Below are positions 1,916-41,747 of a stretch of DNA of 48,731 nt, piece by piece. The notes beneath the pieces are model-generated. The model was given only the letters and a program-made list of their open reading frames with translations, searched no databases and was not told the DNA's origin. Numbering within the stretch: position 1 is the stretch's first letter; every line of letters starts with the position of its first letter. Source of the DNA: a virus; IMG/VR virus record IMGVR_UViG_3300010885_046818, positions 1-48,731 of that record; one strand, 5' to 3'. Both the position numbers and the translations under genes were made by a program.

Positions 1916-3337
1916 TTAAAAAGTCACACTGTTTTCTATTTCAAAACTTGCTTTTAATTCAATGTTTCCTCCTAAATAAATGGCCTCGATATAATCTCCT
2001 TCAACAATTCCTTTTACATAATCGCATATTTCTAAAATATTTGGATTAATTCCTATACGTTTAAACACTTGAAATTCACCAATAGCAAAGTATTTCGAGT
2101 TTTCAATTTTGACTATTCCTGTGGTATTTATGATAAATTGCAAAGGAATAAAGTCTGGAACAATTGTATCATTGTCGACACTTCCTAAAACCGTATCTTT
2201 CAATAATTGAAGTGTATAAGCTCCATCACCCCAAGTGTTTATTTTAGCACCTGCATTAGTTACTTTTAAAATATTGGTGCCTAAAATAGAAAGTCCGTAC
2301 GTGATTTTATAATTGTTCGTACCATTGATAACGTTTACGCCGATAGTATCTGAAATATTCCCATTCAAAACAATTGGTTTATTGAAAATAAATAATACCT
2401 CGTAAATGTTGTCTATGATTGTTTCGCCACTTAACGGACTTGTAGCAGTACACTTTAAAGTCACAAACGGTAATCCAAGTACAACACTTAAGTCTGCAAT
2501 TTCGAATATCTTTTTACTAAAATTTGCCGTTGCCGTAATAGTTGACAAAGAAAAATCTTGACCATTTGGAGTTTTTTCGTAGTTGTAAGGTTCTAACAAA
2601 TCAACCCCGTAAATATTTGAAGTTTGAATATTAGCAAAACTGTCTAATTTTCCATCGAGAAAGTAGATTATATCCGAATCCAACGCCAACGCTAATGGGT
2701 TGTTTAGTTCGTCATTTAGAATCACAGTATATTCTTTTAAAAACAACCGTTGTACCCTTCCAAGTTGATTTTTAGAATCGTTATTCGAAAGTGCTTTATA
2801 GTTTTCTGCTTCGGCGGCTGTGCTACTTTTTGCGTAATAAATAGGCAAACGCATAACCTGATAATAAGAGTTATTTTCGTAAGGAATGCTCCAATGGTTG
2901 GCGTTATGCCTCCAAATCATAAGAGTTGTATTGTCCGCGGGAACCATACTCATTCCAAACTTATTAGAATTGAAGTTTAAATTTGTCGAAATTCCATCGT
3001 TTAACAATACGGCTACATTAATCGAGAATTGCGCCCAATTTTCAGAATATCCACTAATTAAAAACTGAAAATAAAGAAAGTTATTTACTAAATCTAGTTT
3101 ATTTGTTTGAGTTAATCCGAGTGAACTCCCAAAACAATCCGTCAATAAAATTGAATTTACCGAAGTAATCGATTTTACATTTTTATTTGTAAACACAAAA
3201 TCCAAAGGCACATATTGAAAATATTGCTCGCCTACGACCAAATCTAAAAATAATCTATTTTGTGTTGGCGTGTCTTTCGAATAAATTTGCTCGTTTGATC
3301 CAATAAATCGAATGAAACTCTTAATTTGACTATTCAT
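1916..3337 (-). CDS. Putative tail-tip / baseplate protein, 473 aa
   Basis: The 473-residue protein starts at ATG 3337 and overlaps the end of the upstream tail gene by 8 bases, so the two are coupled. It is beta-rich throughout with no membrane segment or catalytic motif that I can see. The last 55 residues (EFQVFKRIG...ASFEI) are duplicated in the following gene. Order (tape measure, large tail protein, this gene) fits a distal-tail or receptor-binding protein of a siphovirus. No specific family is recognised, so the functional name is by position. Confidence 0.65.
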   Translation of the reverse strand: MNSQIKSFIRFIGSNEQIYSKDTPTQNRLFLDLVVGEQYFQYVPLDFVFTNKNVKSITSVNSILLTDCFGSSLGLTQTNKLDLVNNFLYFQFLISGYSENWAQFSINVAVLLNDGISTNLNFNSNKFGMSMVPADNTTLMIWRHNANHWSIPYENNSYYQVMRLPIYYAKSSTAAEAENYKALSNNDSKNQLGRVQRLFLKEYTVILNDELNNPLALALDSDIIYFLDGKLDSFANIQTSNIYGVDLLEPYNYEKTPNGQDFSLSTITATANFSKKIFEIADLSVVLGLPFVTLKCTATSPLSGETIIDNIYEVLFIFNKPIVLNGNISDTIGVNVINGTNNYKITYGLSILGTNILKVTNAGAKINTWGDGAYTLQLLKDTVLGSVDNDTIVPDFIPLQFIINTTGIVKIENSKYFAIGEFQVFKRIGINPNILEICDYVKGIVEGDYIEAIYLGGNIELKASFEIENSVTF

Positions 3338-5519
3338 ATTTTTGTTCTCCTTTTATGTTTAATTTTTCATTTTTGCTATCGTAAACTATACTCGTTGGGA
3401 ATATTTTTAAACTTGCAAATGTTTCTGTGTCGACTAAATTTAAATATCCTTTTTTATCTAAAATTGATTGTAATAAATTATAATAATCTTTAAAATTAAA
3501 ACGCACACTTAATTCAATATCGTAAAAATGCGTTGTGATTAAAGGCGTTACGAACGTATCGATATTTTCATTTTCTTTAATTAAAATAGAAGTTGTTCCC
3601 GCAATACTCGCTTGTGATTTCATTATTCCGTTTAGCTTGTAAAAAGTATTCAATAACTTCACTTTGTTAACGATCAACTGCGTCAAATTTGCCAAGTATT
3701 CCGAGTAATTATCCAATAAAAGCCTTTTTAAGGACAATCTTAAATTATATGCAGTCTGAGGACTTGAATAGTTTATAACAGTAGAAAACCCCTCGTTTGA
3801 ACGGTTCTTATAGGTTTCGTCAACTTGCTTGAAACAATCAATTACATAAGTTTCGTCATCTGTTTGTTTTGACTTCCCGGGTTCGACTGATAAACCTTCC
3901 CTTCTTGCGTATTCTATTTTGTAGGCATCTGCAATAAATCCTATTTCTTTTGTTTCGGTTTCTTTTTGATTACCGCCGTTTACCATCCAAGAGCTTTGTG
4001 TATGAACTGAATCGATTGTGTTGTCTTTATTCTCCTGAATATCTTGAAAAGTCTTATAGTTAAATTCGAGTTTTTTAGTTTTGTTTTTCGGATTTACGCT
4101 TACTGAAAATGAACTTGCAATCGGATTAAAGTCTAGTCTGGCCACTTCAATGTCTTTGTAAAAGTCTGAATGATGCCCAATAAATACTTCGCCATCATTA
4201 ATTTGATAGTCGAAATTAAATTGATTTCGAATATTATCTAAATAATCGTTCCAAGTCATTTTCCATCCGTAAACAGTTTGCGGAAAATTCCTGATAGAAT
4301 ATCCGTTACAACAAAATATATCATAAAGAAAACCTCCTAATTGAAGTTTAGGCGCAGTAAGTCCTGTATAAATGGGATTAATAGATGTTAATAATTGGTT
4401 TCCCATATCATATAAACGGCTCATGTTTGCGGTTGTATCTACATAAGCATCGGTTCCGTATATTTTCATTCCACCGCTTCCCGTTATTTTCAAAGTTCCT
4501 GTAGCTGGAATTGGATAATCAAGATCGGAACTTGAACCAGGATAACCGCCAGAAACAGTACTATGAATATTGAAAGAAAGTCTTGAATTTGACATTAATT
4601 CGAAAATATGATTATCGAAATTAAATTCTAAATTCGTTAAATCAACCGTTAAATTACTAGAAAGGCTCGGCGTGTATGTTTTTTTTAGGCTTGTGATTAT
4701 TGGTGTTCCTGTAAATTCAGGATTTGCAAATGATTGAATTATTACCTCAAAAGTCACCTCGTCAATATGCCCTTGATATACAACATCAGGTGTATAAGTT
4801 CCGTTAAAAGTATCTACTATTCCTGATTTAACGTAATCAATTGCTAGAGCTTCAATTATAATACCTGTAATTGACAGCGTTAATTTTTGAGGAATTAACG
4901 TTTGTATGTGGTAGTAAATATTTGATGTTTTTAAAAAAGGATCAAACTGAGATCCTATTGTGGTGCTTGGATTTAACTGCCAAATATCATCATTTGTAAA
5001 AAAACTATTTAACTCATTTGTTGTGATAATTTGTTTAGAAATAGTTTTAAGCGGTAATAAATAAAATGAATAACCTCCTGAAATATCATATGTTTTTCCT
5101 CCATTTGCTAAATCGTAAACATTTGACGAAAGAATATCTTTTGCTTTTAATTTAACGGGTTCCGTGTTTATTGCGGAAATTGCTTTTTGTTGCAAACTTA
5201 AAGTTGAAAGTAGATTGACTTCAATATCTCCTAATTCATTTAAATATCGGTTACTATCGTTAATTACAGCATCACATTTTAAGTAATTTGTTTTATCGGT
5301 AGTGACTGTTCCAAAATCTAACATTGCACTTAAAATAAGCTCCGTATCAATTGAAACTTTATAGTAAACCTCTGAAAATAAAGATTTGGTTTGGAATTTT
5401 AAAAGTAAATTATCGAATTGTTGACCGAAAACTATTTCACGGTTCTGAAATTCTAAAGAAATGCTATCGCCGAATGTTATTTTTCGACCATAACCTTTAT
5501 CGTTTTGTTCTAACCCCAA
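3330..5519 (-). CDS. Large tail protein (tail-tip/hub-like), start unclear
   Basis: From the TTG at 5519 the protein is 729 residues. The open frame, however, continues upstream to a TAA at 5657-5655 with protein-like sequence (residues such as LYIDNIAYQIDEPIGFDSLS) that resembles the N-termini of Bacteroidota phage tail proteins, so the real protein is probably about 35 residues longer. No ATG, GTG or TTG lies in frame there; an ATG at 5629 is one frame off and followed by CGA TAA. A -7 box lies at 5672-5665. Position directly after the tape-measure region suggests a hub or distal tail protein. Confidence is high that it is coding, moderate for the role. Confidence 0.7.
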   Translation of the reverse strand: MGLEQNDKGYGRKITFGDSISLEFQNREIVFGQQFDNLLLKFQTKSLFSEVYYKVSIDTELILSAMLDFGTVTTDKTNYLKCDAVINDSNRYLNELGDIEVNLLSTLSLQQKAISAINTEPVKLKAKDILSSNVYDLANGGKTYDISGGYSFYLLPLKTISKQIITTNELNSFFTNDDIWQLNPSTTIGSQFDPFLKTSNIYYHIQTLIPQKLTLSITGIIIEALAIDYVKSGIVDTFNGTYTPDVVYQGHIDEVTFEVIIQSFANPEFTGTPIITSLKKTYTPSLSSNLTVDLTNLEFNFDNHIFELMSNSRLSFNIHSTVSGGYPGSSSDLDYPIPATGTLKITGSGGMKIYGTDAYVDTTANMSRLYDMGNQLLTSINPIYTGLTAPKLQLGGFLYDIFCCNGYSIRNFPQTVYGWKMTWNDYLDNIRNQFNFDYQINDGEVFIGHHSDFYKDIEVARLDFNPIASSFSVSVNPKNKTKKLEFNYKTFQDIQENKDNTIDSVHTQSSWMVNGGNQKETETKEIGFIADAYKIEYARREGLSVEPGKSKQTDDETYVIDCFKQVDETYKNRSNEGFSTVINYSSPQTAYNLRLSLKRLLLDNYSEYLANLTQLIVNKVKLLNTFYKLNGIMKSQASIAGTTSILIKENENIDTFVTPLITTHFYDIELSVRFNFKDYYNLLQSILDKKGYLNLVDTETFASLKIFPTSIVYDSKNEKLNIKGEQKYE

Positions 5520-5664
5520 AGAAAGGGAATCAAAACCGATAGGTTCGTCGATTTGATAGGCGATATTATCGATATATAAACGGTGAATTAGTCCGTTGCT
5601 GTCTAGTGGGTTAGTGGTTATTATCGCATATCGTTCGTAATCGAATTTTAGATTTTAATAAGTA

Positions 5665-5672
5665 CAAATGTA
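5665..5672 (-). promoter_or_regulatory. Promoter -7 box (TACATTTG) for the large tail gene
   Basis: TACATTTG on the minus strand matches TAnnTTTG exactly. It sits between the terminator at 5676-5704 and the open frame of the large tail protein, leaving a leader of only about 30-40 bases. Unlike most promoters here it lacks the long GTAAC...TATTC element (GTAAGCAAAA follows instead). Confidence 0.55.
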
Positions 5673-5675
5673 AGC

Positions 5676-5704
5676 AAAAAAAAGCCACTCGGTTAAAAGT
5701 GGCT
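5676..5704 (-). terminator. Intrinsic terminator after the DUF4468 moron
   Basis: On the minus strand AGCCACT (5704-5698) pairs with AGTGGCT (5689-5683) around an 8-base loop, followed by eight Ts. It ends the small operon of the DUF4468 gene and its coupled membrane peptide before the next promoter. Confidence 0.8.
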
Positions 5705-5709
5705 TAAGG

Positions 5710-5808
5710 TTATTTTGTAAAGTAATTAAAAGCAACTATAATAATAGTACTGATTAATACTACTATCCACCAATAAGGGTCTTGTAGTCTATTGTAGTGG
5801 TGGTTCAT
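5710..5808 (-). CDS. Small membrane protein, 32 aa
   Basis: ATG at 5808 overlaps the TAA of the DUF4468 gene (TAATG), so translation is coupled. The peptide has a short polar N-terminus (MNHHYNRLQDPYWW) followed by one hydrophobic segment (IVVLISTIIIVAFNYF) and a terminal Lys. It ends just before an intrinsic terminator. Function unknown; a single-span envelope peptide expressed with a secreted partner is a reasonable description. Confidence 0.6.
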   Translation of the reverse strand: MNHHYNRLQDPYWWIVVLISTIIIVAFNYFTK

Positions 5809-6359
5809 TACCAATCTGATTTTTTAGTTTCTTTGATACTTGAAACGAAATTCTCAACTAAATCATTGATAGCTTTTTCTTTGTCGTGCCTTATTTTTAA
5901 TACTTGTTCCGTTTCAGCGTAATTGCTTTTTAACATTGGTTTTATAGCAAGTAAATCAATGTTTAAACCTATTGATCCTTCTATGTCTGGAGAAGTTTCT
6001 AATAATTTAGAAATAGTTAATTTAATTTTACCTTTCTTTATATCTATATTAAAATAGTATTCAATTAAACAGTCAATAACGCGTTCTTTACCGAATGATT
6101 TGTAAAAAATTGGGTCTTTTATAACCCCATTAAAACTAACAAACTCATTTTCAATATTACCTTTTGCAACCTTGTCTGGGTTTGAATAGTTTTTTTGAAT
6201 GTATTTATTAATCCTTGAATAAATCTCTTTTGCGCTTAACGAATCTAATGCAATAATTTGAGTAGTATTGGTTAAACCTTCCTTTGTAATTTCGATCTTA
6301 TTTTGACCGAATCCATAAATACTAAATAATAGTACAAATGGTAAAATAATATTTTTCAT
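5808..6359 (-). CDS. Secreted DUF4468-like protein (moron), 183 aa
   Basis: Residues 1-18 are a signal peptide (MKNIILPFVLLFSIYGFG) typical of Bacteroidota. The following segment (LDSLSAKEIYSRINKYIQ ... SFNGVI ... DCLIEYYFNIDIKKGKIKL) has the layout of DUF4468, a TBP-like fold found in secreted proteins of this phylum. The gene has its own -7 box and terminator inside the tail operon, between tape measure and tail-tip genes, which is the classic arrangement of a moron. It may alter the surface of the host, but nothing in the sequence shows how. Family call is by pattern, not by search. Confidence 0.65.
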   Translation of the reverse strand: MKNIILPFVLLFSIYGFGQNKIEITKEGLTNTTQIIALDSLSAKEIYSRINKYIQKNYSNPDKVAKGNIENEFVSFNGVIKDPIFYKSFGKERVIDCLIEYYFNIDIKKGKIKLTISKLLETSPDIEGSIGLNIDLLAIKPMLKSNYAETEQVLKIRHDKEKAINDLVENFVSSIKETKKSDW

Positions 6360-6374
6360 AATTTAAAATTTTAC

Positions 6375-6384
6375 CAAATGTAAC
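6375..6384 (-). promoter_or_regulatory. Promoter -7 box of the DUF4468 moron
   Basis: TACATTTG (6382-6375, minus strand) directly follows GTTAC, as in the operator-linked promoters, but the rest of the 37-bp element is absent. It lies 16 bases upstream of ATG 6359 and after the stop of the tape-measure gene. Confidence 0.5.
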
Positions 6385-6391
6385 GCTTTTC

Positions 6392-9300
6392 TTAACTAAG
6401 ATTTTGTCTTTTGAAAGAATTATTCCTATTATCTGAATAGTTTTTCATTGTGATAGATCCTTTATTTACGATTTCGACTAACTTATTATCGATTACAACA
6501 TAACTTTTTACTGATTTGTTGTTATTTGCTTTTGCCATTTGTCGCCCAAATCCCTGCTCGATTTTATCGTAATCAATTTTATTACTTTTTATATGCCCGT
6601 CAATTCGTGAACTTGAAAACATTGCACTTCGAACCATTGCAGAAATATCCGCTGGTAAAATCTTGTCTCCTTTAGTAATATTCGTTAAATGCGCACCGCT
6701 ATCTGAACCAAAAGACTTAATGTTGCCAAAAGCATCCGTGTGGATTTCCGCTCCTTTCTCGTCAATCATTGCAAGTCCTGTGTATGGTGCGTAGTTGGTA
6801 CCGACTTCAAAGCCTGCTATTTTACTTGCACTCATTGCACCGTTAGCTATGACAAGACCTCCTTGAATATAAGCCTGTGTTGCTGCCGACGCATACATTG
6901 CCGCTCCTATTGGATCAAAAGCTGCCGCGTGTGCTGTTGCTTCTGCTGTTGCTTCTGCACCTGCAATAAACAATTTAGACGCGCCCTCATAGGTATTGTA
7001 GCCTATTTGCGCAATAGCCAACGCCTTACCTACTGCACTCGATTTCCCAGAAATTTCAATAAAAAAAGCAAATCCATCTTCTAAGTTTTTCTTTTTTGAA
7101 GCTGCTGTAGCTTCATTCATTGCTATTACATTGTCGGCTAATTGTTTTTCAATTTCTGCTTTCTTTTTTGCGTCTCCTTTAACTAAATTAAGTTCTTTAT
7201 TAAGAGCCGCTTGTTTTAGTTTGAATGAATTTATAGACTGTGCTAAAGAACCTTTATTCAATAACTTAAATTTACCTTCTTCTAGTTTTACTTCGTCGTT
7301 TATTTCTTTTACTTTTGAAGCTAATAAATCCGCATCTACTTTCTTAGTATCTTTATTTTTATCATCTTCAAGTTTTTTTATCCCTTGTAAATACTTCAAT
7401 TCGTTGGCTGTTAAAAGCCCTTTCGTTTTCGAATCGATTTTTAATTGTTCGTCGGTTTTTGTTTTATCGATGTTTAATTCGTCACGCAATCCAGCACGGT
7501 GAACTTCCATAGTTTCCGCAATACGTTTCTTTTCTTCATTAACCAACAAATCAGTCAACGTAGCACCGTCTTTGATTAAAGTTTTGTTATTCATATCGTA
7601 GACTTCCAACTCGAATTTTGCACCGTCTAATCGTGTTTTTTCTAAAGCCTTATTTCTTTCCGTTTCGATTTTTACAAGTTCCTGGCTAAATGTATTTCTT
7701 AAAATCAATTCGTCTTGACTTCCTTTTTTAACCCCGATTAAATTTTTCGAAAGTTCTGCGCTTGCGATGGATCGTTTCATTTCGGAAGTAGCCTGAATAT
7801 GCGCAATGTTTTCGCTCTCCAATTTACTTGCTTGGTCGTAGCTTGCAATTTGATTGTCAAGAGTAATTTTCATCGTTTTAACCGTTTCTTCAGCAGTTTT
7901 CTTTTGACGTGAAAGTTCTTTTTCTGCTGCCTTTTCAGCATCCGCATTCGCTTTTTCTGCGTCTTTTTCGGCTTTTTCTTTTGCTTTCTCCTCTTTCTTT
8001 TCCTTTGCATCTGCAAGTCTATCACTAAAGTTATTTGCTTTTTCAACAACCCGAGAAGATGCTTCTATAAGTCCATATCTTTCAACCTGAATTTTTCGCA
8101 AATGATCTATTTCACTTTGATCTAAATTATATTTTTTCTTAATTTCCTGTGCATAATTAGCGTTTCCTTTTGCCAATTGTTTCATGTCTTCTTCCGAAAT
8201 TTCCTTTCCTTCTGAAAGTCTCATTCTAGCAGCTGCCATTTCTTTATTGTTATGTGATAATTTAGCAGCTACATTTTCATTTTCCAAATCAATTGCTTTT
8301 TTCAACATTTTCATTCTTTCCTCTTCGGATAATGTTCTGTTTTTTGATTGCGTAATCAACTTAGTTATTTCGGCCTGTGCTTTTGCGCTAGATAATTCCA
8401 AGGCTCTTTCGCTTGCTATAATTTCCCTTTGAGCTTTTGCTAATTTATAAGCTTCTTCTGCTGCTTTACTTGTTTCACTTCCCAATGAAGAGAATACTTC
8501 TGTTAATGATTTTGACCCTGTGGCCAATGCAAAAACACTACTTTTTAGCACTTCAAATATTGCCATTAACGACGCAAATAAATCTTTTACAGGGTTTATA
8601 ACTGGCGCAAAATCTTTAAAAATATAGACTAATACTCCAAAAGCTAAAACTACTGCCGTGATCGGGAATAATAAAACCGCCAACGCTGCATTTAAGCCCC
8701 ATGTTGTTGCTGTTGCTGCTACTTCCGCACCTGCTGCTACTTCGGTTGTTCCGGCTAATCCAACTTGTGCAACTGCCATTCCTTCTGTTGCTGTTGTCGC
8801 TACTGTTGCAGCTGTTGAAAATCCAGCTACTACAACTCTGGATTCTGCCGTTGCAACTGCATTCGCTTCGGTAGCTATTGTTGAAGCTTCAACCGCTACA
8901 ACTGCCGATTTTTCAACCGCAATCATTTTAATTTTAGCGGCTACATACGAAGCTGTATTTTTTGCCCCTGTAACTACGCTTTCGCTTATGTCTTTTACTT
9001 TAGTAACCGCTTGCGCACCACCTTGAACAAAACCTACGGCAGTACGTGTTAACTCTCCAATTTTCCCACTAAACAATCCTGTTTGCTCTAATGCGGATTT
9101 TACACCGCCAGCATAATCGCCAATATTCATTTTTTGCTTTAATGCTGCGTCCGCATTTGCTTTGATAAATGCGTTATTTGCGTCTAATTTTGCATTAAAA
9201 CCCGTTAACTGTAATTGACCTTCAGCGGTCGTTAAATTAACATTGTTTCTAGCCTGTGTAAGTAATGCGTTTTGCGCTCTTGCTTCGGCAATTGAAGTGA

Positions 9301-23192: not shown

Positions 23193-23375
23193 TCAAAACG
23201 GACAATCCGATTTTTTAGGTTTTGGGAGTAAGGTATTATACTCCCTTTTTATTTTTTCAGCTATTGCATCACGGATGAAATTACCAACTTTTATATTATT
23301 AGCACTTATTTTTTCTAAAGTGTTAAACTGAATTTCAGAAACGTTTATCGTAATATTTTTAGTGTATGACTTCAT
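23193..23375 (-). CDS. Ribbon-helix-helix-like DNA-binding protein, 60 aa
   Basis: The layout is that of an Arc/CopG-type regulator: an N-terminal strand (KNITINVSEIQFNTLEKIS) followed by two helices (NNIKVGNFIRDAIAEKI). A short basic tail ends SDCPF. It is the last gene before the terminator and adjacent to the operator at 23048-23084, so it is one candidate for the factor that binds the repeated palindromes, or a methylase-operon regulator. Confidence 0.6.
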   Translation of the reverse strand: MKSYTKNITINVSEIQFNTLEKISANNIKVGNFIRDAIAEKIKREYNTLLPKPKKSDCPF

Positions 23376-23418
23376 AAAAGATTTGTATTTATATCGGTTA
23401 GCAAATAGTTACCTGCTA

Positions 23419-23838
23419 TTATTCCGTAACGGAACGCCATTCAGGTAAATCATAAATTTTCTTTCCTACTTCAAAGTATTTAGTCCAAAACCATTCTGTA
23501 ACTTCTTTCCATTTTACGGTAACCGAAGTGCAGTAAGAAAATGTTTCAGCACGTCCGCCAAAACAAAAAACTGACATTAATTTTGCACCAATCCAAATAC
23601 CATTTTCATCACGCAATCCAATGTAATAAGAACCATTTTCGGTATCTTGAAAAACGTTCGTTAAATGACGTTTTCTGTAAGTTAGAAATCTGTATAAATT
23701 TGGAGAAAATTTATTATCATTTTTAGGATTAATAAATTTATTCAATCCGTAAGCAGGAACATTTCCGCCTATTATAACAGCAGGTAACACAGGATTTGTG
23801 CTATTGCTTGGCTTGGTTTTTTCTGAATGTTTAGTCAT
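23419..23838 (-). CDS. Hypothetical protein, 139 aa
   Basis: The N-terminus is disordered and polar (MTKHSEKTKPSNSTNPVLP), followed by an aromatic-rich C-terminal domain (WKEVTEWFWTKYFEVGKKI). No family recognised. It lies immediately downstream of the cassette array, whose last attC-like site appears truncated. Confidence 0.6.
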   Translation of the reverse strand: MTKHSEKTKPSNSTNPVLPAVIIGGNVPAYGLNKFINPKNDNKFSPNLYRFLTYRKRHLTNVFQDTENGSYYIGLRDENGIWIGAKLMSVFCFGGRAETFSYCTSVTVKWKEVTEWFWTKYFEVGKKIYDLPEWRSVTE

Positions 23839-23911
23839 AATCTGTAATTTTTAGTGTTTAAATTAATGTTTGGGTTTATTTTTTTTCGCAACAGACACAA
23901 AGCATCAGACG

Positions 23912-24853
23912 TTATGGTAAATGCTCAAAACCGAGTGCTACAAGAACTTTTCGGTATCCAAGTTTGTCCATCATACTATTATATCTCTTTGGCTCTCTTT
24001 TTGCTAATCTTGAAATCCTATTGTCATCTTTTGATTCACAATTCAAGCCAAATAAACACCAAGCACAACCAGTTCTTTTTTCTCCTGTAACTAATTCTCC
24101 ATTTATAATTTGGTCGTAATATATCGGGCAAATTTCTATATTGAACTTATCAATAAGTTCCCAAATATTATCTTCTGTAAACAATGATAAAGGCGAGCAA
24201 ATTTCTTTTCCTTCTGTCCAACTTATACAACCACCGTTTTTTAAATAACGCATTTTTCTTTGATTGCTTTCGGATGTCATTACTCCATTTATAGGTTTTA
24301 ATCCTGTTTCTTTCTCAAATTTATGTATTGGTTCTTTTTTTAGAATATCGCAACATTTATCTGTAGTTAAGAAATCTTCATCTAAAAGATAGTGCCATTT
24401 TTTAGCTATTCTAAAAGCACTTTGACTGCCATCTTTATTTATTCCAAATTTGTAAAACAACTTCATTGCTTCACTTTTTGTTTTTTTGTATCTATCAATA
24501 AATCTTGCTGTCTGTTTTGATACAACGGGATAACCATACTTTTGCAACGTTTCAGCAAATGTCATTCTAGGTCTTGTCCAAATTACATCATCACCAAAAG
24601 TTTTTACAAAATCTAATATCTCTTTGTGTTCATTTGTGGTATTATTAAACAAACATTTTATTCTCGGATATTTATTCATATCTGTCCACTTATCGATAAA
24701 GAATTTCAGAACAGTTGAATCTTTACCGCCAGAAAAATTAAGATAAACTCCTCCATTAAATTTATGATAATAAACATCTACTACTTCAAGTAAATGAAAA
24801 ATCTTTTGGTCTAATGTCCAATTGATTTTTTCGCTATAAGATTATTTTTCCAT
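23912..24853 (-). pseudogene. PAPS-reductase-like protein broken by an ochre at codon 4
   Basis: The frame from ATG 24853 reads M E K stop, then continues open for 309 codons to 23912. The segment after the stop holds the PP-loop SFSGGKDST-type motif (residues 40-47, NFSGGKDST), which binds the nucleotide in PAPS-reductase/ATP-pyrophosphatase proteins. The next in-frame ATG (24679) lies after that motif, so re-initiation there would give a 255-residue protein without the active site. The C-terminal part keeps a Cys-rich block (RTGCAWCLFGLNCE). No GTG or TTG start lies between. A readthrough or sequencing error would restore the gene. Confidence 0.75.
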
Positions 24854-24875
24854 CACGTTTTTGTAAAAGCACTTA

Positions 24876-25009
24876 CCATAACACTGCATTGTAGCAATTG
24901 TGGTATTTGGCTTGATTGATAAATAATTTTGTACTTGGTTAGTTAGGTTTTAAATCGATAATTCGGCAGTCCTAATCCACAACTGCGACAATGCTCAACG
25001 TTAGTGGCA
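24876..25009 (-). repeat. attC-like imperfect inverted repeat, about 134 bp
   Basis: On the plus strand AACACTGCATTGTAGC...TGTGG (24880-24903) is the imperfect reverse complement of CCACAACTGCGACAATGC...GTT (24977-25002), with a few extrahelical bases. Outer boxes are GTTAGTGGC and CCATAAC. Length and imperfect pairing resemble attC sites, whose folded single strand is the recombination substrate of integron integrases. Confidence 0.55.
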
Positions 25010-25025
25010 ACCGCCTAGTTTGGCT

Positions 25026-25292
25026 TTAAAAAGAAAAACCAGCATCATAAGTCATTACTTTTTTATCTTGTTCTATTTCTTCAATAGTCATTCTTATTTC
25101 TGATAAAAAATGCGAATCAATTATTATTTTTTCCGTACTAACATAATTACCATTATAATCATATTTATCTTTGAAAAAAGTTATACTTTCAACTTTGTTT
25201 TGGTGCATTGCTTTTTCTCCTTCTTTACATTTTTCTATCGGTCTATATTCAGAAGTTAAAATGCAATCTTGTGTTTTTAAAAATGTTCTCAT
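25026..25292 (-). CDS. Cassette-borne hypothetical protein, 88 aa
   Basis: The 88-residue soluble protein (MRTFLKTQDCILTSEYRPIE) has no recognised family. The ATG lies 23 bases after the cassette start box at 25315-25324, and the stop 17 bases before the end box at 25000-25009. This compact arrangement, one gene between complementary boxes, is that of an integron cassette. Function unknown. Confidence 0.6.
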   Translation of the reverse strand: MRTFLKTQDCILTSEYRPIEKCKEGEKAMHQNKVESITFFKDKYDYNGNYVSTEKIIIDSHFLSEIRMTIEEIEQDKKVMTYDAGFSF

Positions 25293-25372
25293 AATCTTAA
25301 AGTTTTACGTGGTATGCCACTAACAGTCGCTATATTTCAGCGTTTTTATTGGTGATTTCTGTTTTCATAATT

Positions 25373-40550: not shown

Positions 40551-41747
40551 TTAAAAATATTTACTCAACTCGATTGCTTTGTCGCTGTTGCTTTTTCCAA
40601 CATAGGTTAAAAAAGTAGATTCTTTTGTGTGGCCAGTAGCACTCATTAATAATGCCGTTGGTATTTTACCATAAAAGTTAGTGGCAAAGGATCTTCTACC
40701 AATATGCGAAGTTACCAGTTCGTTTTTTGGGTAATCTTTTAAAACTTTTCGCTTTGTCTTTGGATCCATTTTTCCACCGTAAACAATATCAGTAATTTTA
40801 GCCTTTTTACAAACCGATTTTATCAAAACATTATAATCCGAATCGGTAAACTTTTCTGGAAACCGATAATCTCTTTTGTTTAAAATTTCAATAACTTTTT
40901 TATGAAGTGGCAAAGTCATAACCTTACCTGTTTTTTGCTGTGTAAATTCAATCAGGACCACGCCATTTTCAGTTCTAATCATATCAGTGGTAAAACGCAT
41001 AAAATCAGAAACCCGCTGCGCTGTGTAACATGAAATTAAAAGCCAATCCCTGGCACAATCTAAATCAATTATTTTTAAAACTACTTTTTCAATTTCTTCA
41101 ATATCTTTCTCATTCAAATAAATACTTATTGCTTTTTTCTGAACTGTTTTTATATCCTCGATTTCGTAATTTATTTGTAAACCTCTTTTTCTGGCATGAT
41201 TGCAAATTGCTTTTATTTCTTTTAGATTATTAGCAATTGTATTTTCAGCATATCCATTTTCGATACAGTATTTTTCGAATTCATTTTTAAATTCCATATC
41301 GATATTTTTTATCAAATATGGTTTTTTTGAAAACGACTGCATTTTTATTAATTTATTTTGAACCACTTTAATTTTCATCGAAGTACGATGATCAATTTCC
41401 CTAGCTCTTTCTTTCAGGTAAAAATCAAAATAAGAAATAAGATCCAAAGGGATGTTTATGTTTTCAACTGGGTTTATGAAATTCTTAAGCCATCTTAAAT
41501 TTATCGGGTCAGTTGTATTATTAAAATGTTTTAGTAGATTTGCTTTTAGGTTTTGCAGATCAGTATCGAGATTTTTAAAATCTATATTTTTTAAGTTCTT
41601 TGGTTTTTGCTTTAGGTCGCTCCAGTCAATTGGATTTATAATGTAATTTGTTTTTACTTTAAAATCGTAATTTCGGCCATCAATAAATCGTAAATAAATA
41701 TAGGATGGGTTTTGATTGCTAATTAGTAAGAACTTGATAGTTGCCAT
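40551..41747 (-). CDS. Tyrosine recombinase (phage integrase), 398 aa
   Basis: An N-terminal arm-binding part (MATIKFLLISNQNPSYIYLR) and a SAM-like core-binding domain (residues 100-200) precede the catalytic domain. Catalytic residues are visible: Arg245 (YTAQRVSD), Lys272 (QKTGK), His348/Arg351 (SHIGRR), His373 (GHTKES) and the nucleophile Tyr382 (TYVGKS). Full length of the family. It is adjacent to the duplicated 28-bp element in its promoter region, a candidate attP. Makes the phage temperate. Confidence 0.92.
   Translation of the reverse strand: MATIKFLLISNQNPSYIYLRFIDGRNYDFKVKTNYIINPIDWSDLKQKPKNLKNIDFKNLDTDLQNLKANLLKHFNNTTDPINLRWLKNFINPVENINIPLDLISYFDFYLKERAREIDHRTSMKIKVVQNKLIKMQSFSKKPYLIKNIDMEFKNEFEKYCIENGYAENTIANNLKEIKAICNHARKRGLQINYEIEDIKTVQKKAISIYLNEKDIEEIEKVVLKIIDLDCARDWLLISCYTAQRVSDFMRFTTDMIRTENGVVLIEFTQQKTGKVMTLPLHKKVIEILNKRDYRFPEKFTDSDYNVLIKSVCKKAKITDIVYGGKMDPKTKRKVLKDYPKNELVTSHIGRRSFATNFYGKIPTALLMSATGHTKESTFLTYVGKSNSDKAIELSKYF

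Follow-up and report, generated by a model that had tools for sequence, protein, structure and literature searches.

The window, a viral record of 48,731 bases that carries head, packaging and replication genes of phage type, very probably contains an array of three cassettes that belongs to an integron-like system specific to phages, in which the genes lie antisense to their attC-like sites. On balance we also favour the wider reading that Bacteroidota phages have an integron system that is virus-specific and independently organised. It would comprise a XerA-like recombinase that lacks the IntI insertion, an attI of its own and a common pool of antisense-gene cassettes; these would pass between virulent and temperate phages alike, and phages with only an array would depend on a recombinase supplied in trans. 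The three single-gene cassettes occupy positions 23408-25324 of the minus strand (Table 1), where the original prediction had counted two units, and each of them has a GTTA... box at the start of its gene and a complementary ...TAAC box at the end of it.

Table 1. Coordinates of the cassette array and its putative sites in the window
Feature	Sequence	Position	Strand	Remarks
Sequence preceding cassette 1	GAAATATAGCGACT	25325..25338	-	inspected by eye; other sites end in CGACT↓GTTA; weak
R' box opening cassette 1	GTTAGTGGCATACC	25311..25324	-	10/10 complementary to 24999-25008
Cassette 1 gene, 88-aa orphan protein		25026..25292	-	no Pfam or PHROG match
R'' box closing cassette 1	TGCCACTAAC	24999..25008	-	
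attC-like site 1, TAAC to GTTA, 124 nt		24879..25002	-	scanner score 35
R' box opening cassette 2	GTTATGGTAAGTGCT	24868..24882	-	14/15 complementary to 23911-23925
Cassette 2 gene, phage PAPS-reductase-like		23912..24835	-	PF01507 E=1.2e-11; phrog_424 E=3.6e-38
R'' box closing cassette 2	AGCATTTACCATAAC	23911..23925	-	
attC-like site 2, complete		23785..23914	-	right half inside next coding sequence (gene 23419-23838, 5' end)
R' box opening cassette 3	GTTACCTGCTGTTAT	23774..23788	-	within gene 23419-23838; 93% complementary pair (repeat search)
Cassette 3 gene, 139 aa		23419..23838	-	no family match (Pfam, PHROG); first ~19 residues encoded by attC-like site
R'' box closing cassette 3	ATAATAGCAGGTAAC	23408..23422	-	complementary to GTTACCTGCTGTTAT; end of gene 23419-23838
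Array end	TATTTGCTAACCGATATAAATACAAATC...	23376..23407	-	place of the attI-like sequence in relatives; by-eye comparison with 22 recombinase-linked ends and the Moomin end TACAATATTACATG

The boxes are complementary as first claimed, with GTTAGTGGCA (25315-25324) matching TGCCACTAAC (24999-25008) at all ten positions and GTTATGGTAAGTGCT matching AGCATTTACCATAAC at 14 of 15, the sole mismatch being the G.T that is conserved at position 11 in the family; R'' carries the T at this position in all three window pairs. The attC-like imperfect inverted repeat proposed between the first two cassettes also stands; the minus strand of 24879-25002 folds in place at -20.4 kcal/mol (z -2.4) and, when given the boxes of an excised circle, at -26.1 kcal/mol (z -5.5, none of 200 shuffles being as good). 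Site 2 alone has a weak predicted fold, which we count against our preferred explanation. The last half-site had been thought to lack its partner, but this partner, the right half, falls within the 5' end of the gene at 23419-23838, which rules out a truncated site 2, and the 140-nt site 2 region is identical at 127 of 140 positions to the complete site of Flavobacterium phage filifjonk9-1; a DNA search further shows 94% identity over 54 nt to many Flavobacterium phages. An Rfam scan of the window gave no match.

The window thus has the complementary R'/R'' boxes and imperfect L'/L'' hairpin by which attC sites are recognised, and its two sites and three box pairs (from our own scanner and from homology) fit the definition of a CALIN, in which at least two attC sites lie close together with no integrase beside them. 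It also has the features of the family of sites in Flavobacterium phages, namely a TAACG left box, a GTTA right box, arms of the form GCTTTGT..TGTTGC and GCAAT..ACAAA, and complementary boxes of about 15 nt with T at position 11 of R''.

This family extends well beyond the window. Used as a DNA query, the window array matched 46 Flavobacterium phage records, and sites of the family also occur in Flavobacterium phage 11b and in dozens of IMG/VR contigs. The virulent Flavobacterium 'Moomin' phages carry arrays of about 9-15 sites (14 by our scan in morran9-1), and nearly every accessory gene there is bounded by sites. A strict left-arm pattern found 48 stretches in viral contigs as opposed to one in 85,000 prokaryote genomes (257 Gb), and we dismissed this lone genome match as chance because it falls within a coding region of Patescibacteria and no other sites accompany it. 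The scanner detected about 200 sites in viral loci, whereas 408 kb of shuffled sequence yielded 6; together with a box complementarity above the null (below), this excludes chance at the level of the family. We use the label 'phage-specific' provisionally, since the genome scan employed one strict pattern and the recombinase was sought in viral contigs, phage isolates and plasmids.

To describe box pairing we used 145 distinct cassettes that were not selected for pairing. Beyond the GTTA core, the start and end boxes agree at 7.1 of 10 positions, compared with 3.1 under random re-pairing (maximum 3.4 in 200 shuffles). Position 11 of the pair is the exception, with hardly any matches; in the 124 well-paired cassettes R'' always has T there and R' has G in 102, so that the pair is a G.T wobble on the gene-sense strand and a C.A mismatch on the opposite strand. 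The gene-sense strand also folds slightly better in 33 of 48 sites, and these two observations point to the sense strand as the one that would be folded. Inspection by eye shows one extra base in the left arm of some sites and none in others, and we dropped the reading of the folded strand from extra bases as ambiguous. The presence of integron-like cassettes with non-classical boxes inside a phage, as originally predicted, is borne out by the arrays in Flavobacterium phages and by this pairing, and a divergent Bacteroidota cassette family is probable. The implied rarity of phage-borne cassettes does not hold, since Flavobacterium-type phages commonly carry the family and a 2023 study (PMC9892861) had already described arrays in virulent phages.

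The arms of the sites are long and imperfect, and their loops span tens of bases and often contain start codons. In the morran9-1 array (2050-9223), 8 of the 22 annotated genes start inside an attC-like site, which encodes their first residues (e.g. ...PSNSTKPMLPAV).

To establish what is exchanged, we compared linkage across 16 Moomin arrays with 193 sites and 50 distinct configurations. Each hairpin goes with its downstream gene, and a change of that gene is accompanied by a change of hairpin. Of 64 array junctions in these 16 related phages, 52 fall within about five bases of TAAC, and where sequences diverge the identity ends 1-4 bases past TAAC in 38 of 48 distinct comparisons. Shared units start at TAAC in 14 of 16 cases, and only a handful of junctions lie at the GTTA box. 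For instance, mumin6-1 and mumin6-3 have ...GGTTAACG in common and then join different hairpins, and snork6-2 is without one unit that snork6-1 holds between two identical CTTGCTTATAAC boxes. The junctions at the upstream TAAC box and the linkage of hairpin to downstream gene indicate that a hairpin and the gene that follows it are exchanged as one unit. A crossover at the other box would exchange the N-termini of those proteins that start inside a site. About one fifth of the junctions depart from the left-box rule, and we count these against our explanation. Separately, mumin6-1 contains a hybrid site whose left and right arms come from different hairpin types and whose boxes are no longer complementary, which suggests recombination inside a hairpin.

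In classical integrons recombination is confined to L'-R' of the bottom strand (PMC2727003), so that their unit is a gene followed by its own attC. The linkage and junction tables rule out a moving unit of this kind here, and a crossover at a downstream L'-R' box is not what the arrays display. If the opposite strand is read, the usual order of attI followed by gene and attC is restored, with every gene antisense. It is therefore improbable that the window holds classical cassettes which IntI took from a bacterial chromosomal integron and which the phage carries passively as a CALIN. Such an origin would account for complementary boxes starting G↓TT, imperfect hairpins and single genes, and phage attC sites reported in PMC9892861, including one from Polaribacter phage P12002L, do work with IntI1. 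However, the window R' boxes (GTTAGTG, GTTATGG and GTTACCT) deviate from the consensus GTTRRRY, the unit has the polarity just described, the strict site pattern is missing from the prokaryote genomes save for the one chance match, and the recombinase linked to the arrays has no IntI insertion.

That recombinase was found in relatives of the array. Of 42 array-bearing records, three match the phage-integrase family, and in two of these (G003 and G005) there is a strong match at the array end; the two proteins are 267-268 aa long and 70% identical to each other. A protein-only search of viral contigs recovered 22 loci at 57% identity or more and six distant recombinases. All 22 loci have the same layout, in which the variable tail of a cassette, terminating in TAAC (AAC in two), is followed by a conserved block, TACTATATGTA..., and then by the start codon of the recombinase. 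Sites are detectable upstream in 19 of them and the other three start at or near a contig edge, and near the six distant recombinases, which lie outside the family, we found no sites. The conserved block, which follows the cassette tail as TAAC↓TACTATATGTA, is the natural candidate for attI, and such a sequence stands beside the recombinase gene in all 22 loci. That the recombinase-bearing contigs have Bacteroidota hosts is inferred from the site family they have in common with the Flavobacterium phages and from a single weak similarity to Polaribacter phages.

In sequence as well as in predicted fold, the recombinase comes nearest to XerA and the archaeal Xer proteins (PDB 5hxy and 4a8e). NCBIfam NF040815 is its top family at a score below the cut-off, and against TIGR02249 it scores 139-146 bits where the cut-off is 265. 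Its alignment to IntI falls into two parts, and the roughly 48 residues absent between these correspond to the insertion that characterises IntI; this region has 81 residues in IntI4 and 33 in the phage recombinase. The AlphaFold model is of moderate confidence (pLDDT 80, pTM 0.59) and gave poor global superpositions, and we used it only to rank relatives. Xer proteins resolve chromosome dimers at dif, and we know of no Xer protein tied to cassette arrays. The nearest relatives in phage isolates reach at most 38% identity over most of the length, and those in plasmids reach 41-50%. The closest plasmid relative by identity is the 'TnpF' of plasmid record FJ012881.1 and of Acinetobacter plasmids, at about 50% and matching 77% of the query.

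The window itself has no match to TIGR02249, in line with the original statement that it holds no integron integrase. The only tyrosine recombinase found in it (40551-41747) has the domain make-up of ordinary phage integrases, and no relatives of this protein were found encoded in viral contigs. The XerA-like family is absent from the window and from the five whole Moomin genomes searched, which counts against our explanation. The Moomin arrays end in TAAC↓TACAATATTACATG and have no recombinase, which looks like a related end that has lost it. The window end is still less similar, with only a faint match to TACTATATGTA by eye, a remnant without a recombinase, and the following open reading frame begins at 23375.

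Ordinary phage mosaicism offers another account, in which short conserved repeats between genes would serve as places for homologous or microhomology recombination that shuffles the genes, and the hairpins would act as transcription terminators or mRNA signals. The missing recombinase in the window and in the searched Moomin genomes would suit it, as would the annotated recombination protein that Moomin phages carry and the fifth of junctions that lie elsewhere. We consider it very unlikely, because terminators need neither some 15 nt of complementarity between the start and end of a gene, different for each gene, nor a conserved wobble on one strand. Start codons in many site loops, as in the morran9-1 genes, would be odd for terminators, and an attI-like junction with a recombinase beside the array recurs in 22 loci.

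A relative of the 88-aa protein of cassette 1 (89% identical) lies in the array of another viral contig (L005), where its box pair is different yet complementary; none was found in phage and plasmid records, and searches for relatives of the 139-aa protein of cassette 3 returned none. The PAPS-like gene has an in-frame TAA four codons past its likely ATG (24838-24853; MEK-stop-SYSEK...), whereas its relatives in L001-L003 are intact, with no stop across the corresponding region. This early stop suggests that the gene may be inactive or may start at a rare codon. The relatives in phages L001, L002 and L003 (46340-57269 of a 97-kb contig), at 52-80% identity, have no cassette boxes, so this gene can be either an ordinary phage gene or a cassette. 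In one recombinase-bearing locus (L076, 8168-9169) the last cassette ahead of the recombinase is also a PAPS-reductase-like gene. None of the window's own cassettes was seen in the recombinase-bearing phages, a further point against our explanation.

The state of the window copy deserves separate consideration. The bases at 25325-25338 are possibly the last of a truncated attC right arm; upstream of them inspection revealed neither a left arm nor TAACG, and no complete site could be recognised at this upstream edge of the array. We count against our explanation both this lack of a complete hairpin on the upstream side of cassette 1 and the poor match of the attI-like end. The window's own array may be inactive, and it is possible, although we lean the other way, that it is a fossil, a decayed array piece which can no longer be exchanged and is retained only for its useful genes. 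A truncated first site, the weak fold of the second, the early nonsense codon in the PAPS-like gene and the degenerate array end all fit decay, whereas three intact box pairs that obey the family rule and a first site that folds well do not. A fossil window is compatible with our preferred explanation, an integron-like system of phages, when the whole family is considered.

We looked for relatives lacking the array, as had been proposed. Relatives of the flanking ParB-methyltransferase gene (81-95% identity) are free of the array at the expected position, which we count in favour of the phage system, but their flanks are entirely different and no exact empty site was obtained. A relative of the PcfJ flank (L004) also has no array and is too distant to define an empty site.

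The arrays, the boxes, the positions of the junctions and the association of recombinase with attI are read directly from the sequences, and from them we infer how the phage integron-like system would work. The gene-sense strand of a site would fold into a hairpin as a single strand, and the XerA-like tyrosine recombinase, if it is indeed the enzyme paired with these sites, would exchange DNA inside the TAAC↓G box. A circular cassette consisting of hairpin and gene would then enter an array at the attI-like TAAC↓TACTATATGTA beside the recombinase gene, or at the box of another cassette. Cassette genes, being antisense relative to attI and attC, would be read towards the recombinase. The complete system of recombinase, attI and array is present in some phages; others, among them the window and the Moomin phages, have the array only and would be served by a recombinase in trans, for example from a co-infecting phage or a prophage. 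Without a recombinase of its own, the window array would need one supplied in this way. Since the cassettes carry orphan proteins, DNA methyltransferases and PAPS-reductase-like proteins, the array is probably an exchangeable store of host-interaction genes, from which the phage would benefit. Several cassettes in the Moomin arrays (L009-L025) are DNA methyltransferases, up to five per phage accessory region, and these are likely a counter-restriction pool.

Cassette arrays in virulent phages were already known. Qi et al. (2023; PMC9892861) describe CALINs in Tetrasphaera phage TJE1, Polaribacter phage P12002L and Pseudoalteromonas phage PH101, with one of the two P12002L sites working with IntI1; our scanner also picks up two sites in the genome of P12002L, whose host belongs to the Flavobacteriaceae. 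Like the arrays described here, theirs have clustered attC-like sites, single genes (often DNA methyltransferases), virulent phage carriers and no integrase in the array. They differ in being short (3-4 genes), and the main text of that study contains neither Flavobacterium nor any Bacteroid- name and does not report, as far as that text goes, a site family specific to phages, a recombinase or attI dedicated to these sites, or a unit of reversed polarity. The Muminvirus, Lillamyvirus and Hattifnattvirus phages of Flavobacterium have the same site family as the window, with about 9-15 sites per array, and their original description (Nilsson et al. 2020, PMC7077304) makes no mention of integrons or attC. 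In the literature searched, we found no description of the phage-specific site family, of its recombinase and attI, or of the reversed unit.

With integrons (IntI, attI and attC, including sedentary chromosomal ones) the phage system shares a recombinase beside an attI-like site, an array of single-gene cassettes, hairpin sites, complementary boxes with G↓TT and crossover at the box. It differs in its XerA-like recombinase of 267 aa without the IntI insertion, in box complementarity of about 15 nt with a fixed wobble, in cassette genes that are antisense to the attI/attC axis and in its residence in phages. Treponema integrons resemble it in their unusual orientation, with recombinase and cassette genes in one direction (PMC3607928). 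In Treponema, however, intI is transcribed towards attI with the cassettes following, whereas the phage cassettes read towards attI and the phage recombinase reads away from it. The phage system is thus integron-like in its working, yet it departs from integrons in its integrase family, in the GTTRRRY box and in the polarity of its unit.

Integrons are regarded as bacterial systems which phages acquire from time to time. In the present case the sites appear to form a viral and common family that is linked to a recombinase of its own, and this would provide phages with a dedicated route for swapping single accessory genes, methyltransferases and small orphan proteins among them. This offers a testable reason for the variable accessory region among closely related Flavobacterium phages. 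A Xer-type enzyme without the IntI insertion, possibly acting on folded single-stranded sites, would also allow a direct test of what the insertion is for, and strand choice in the phage system may be set differently from that in classical attC.
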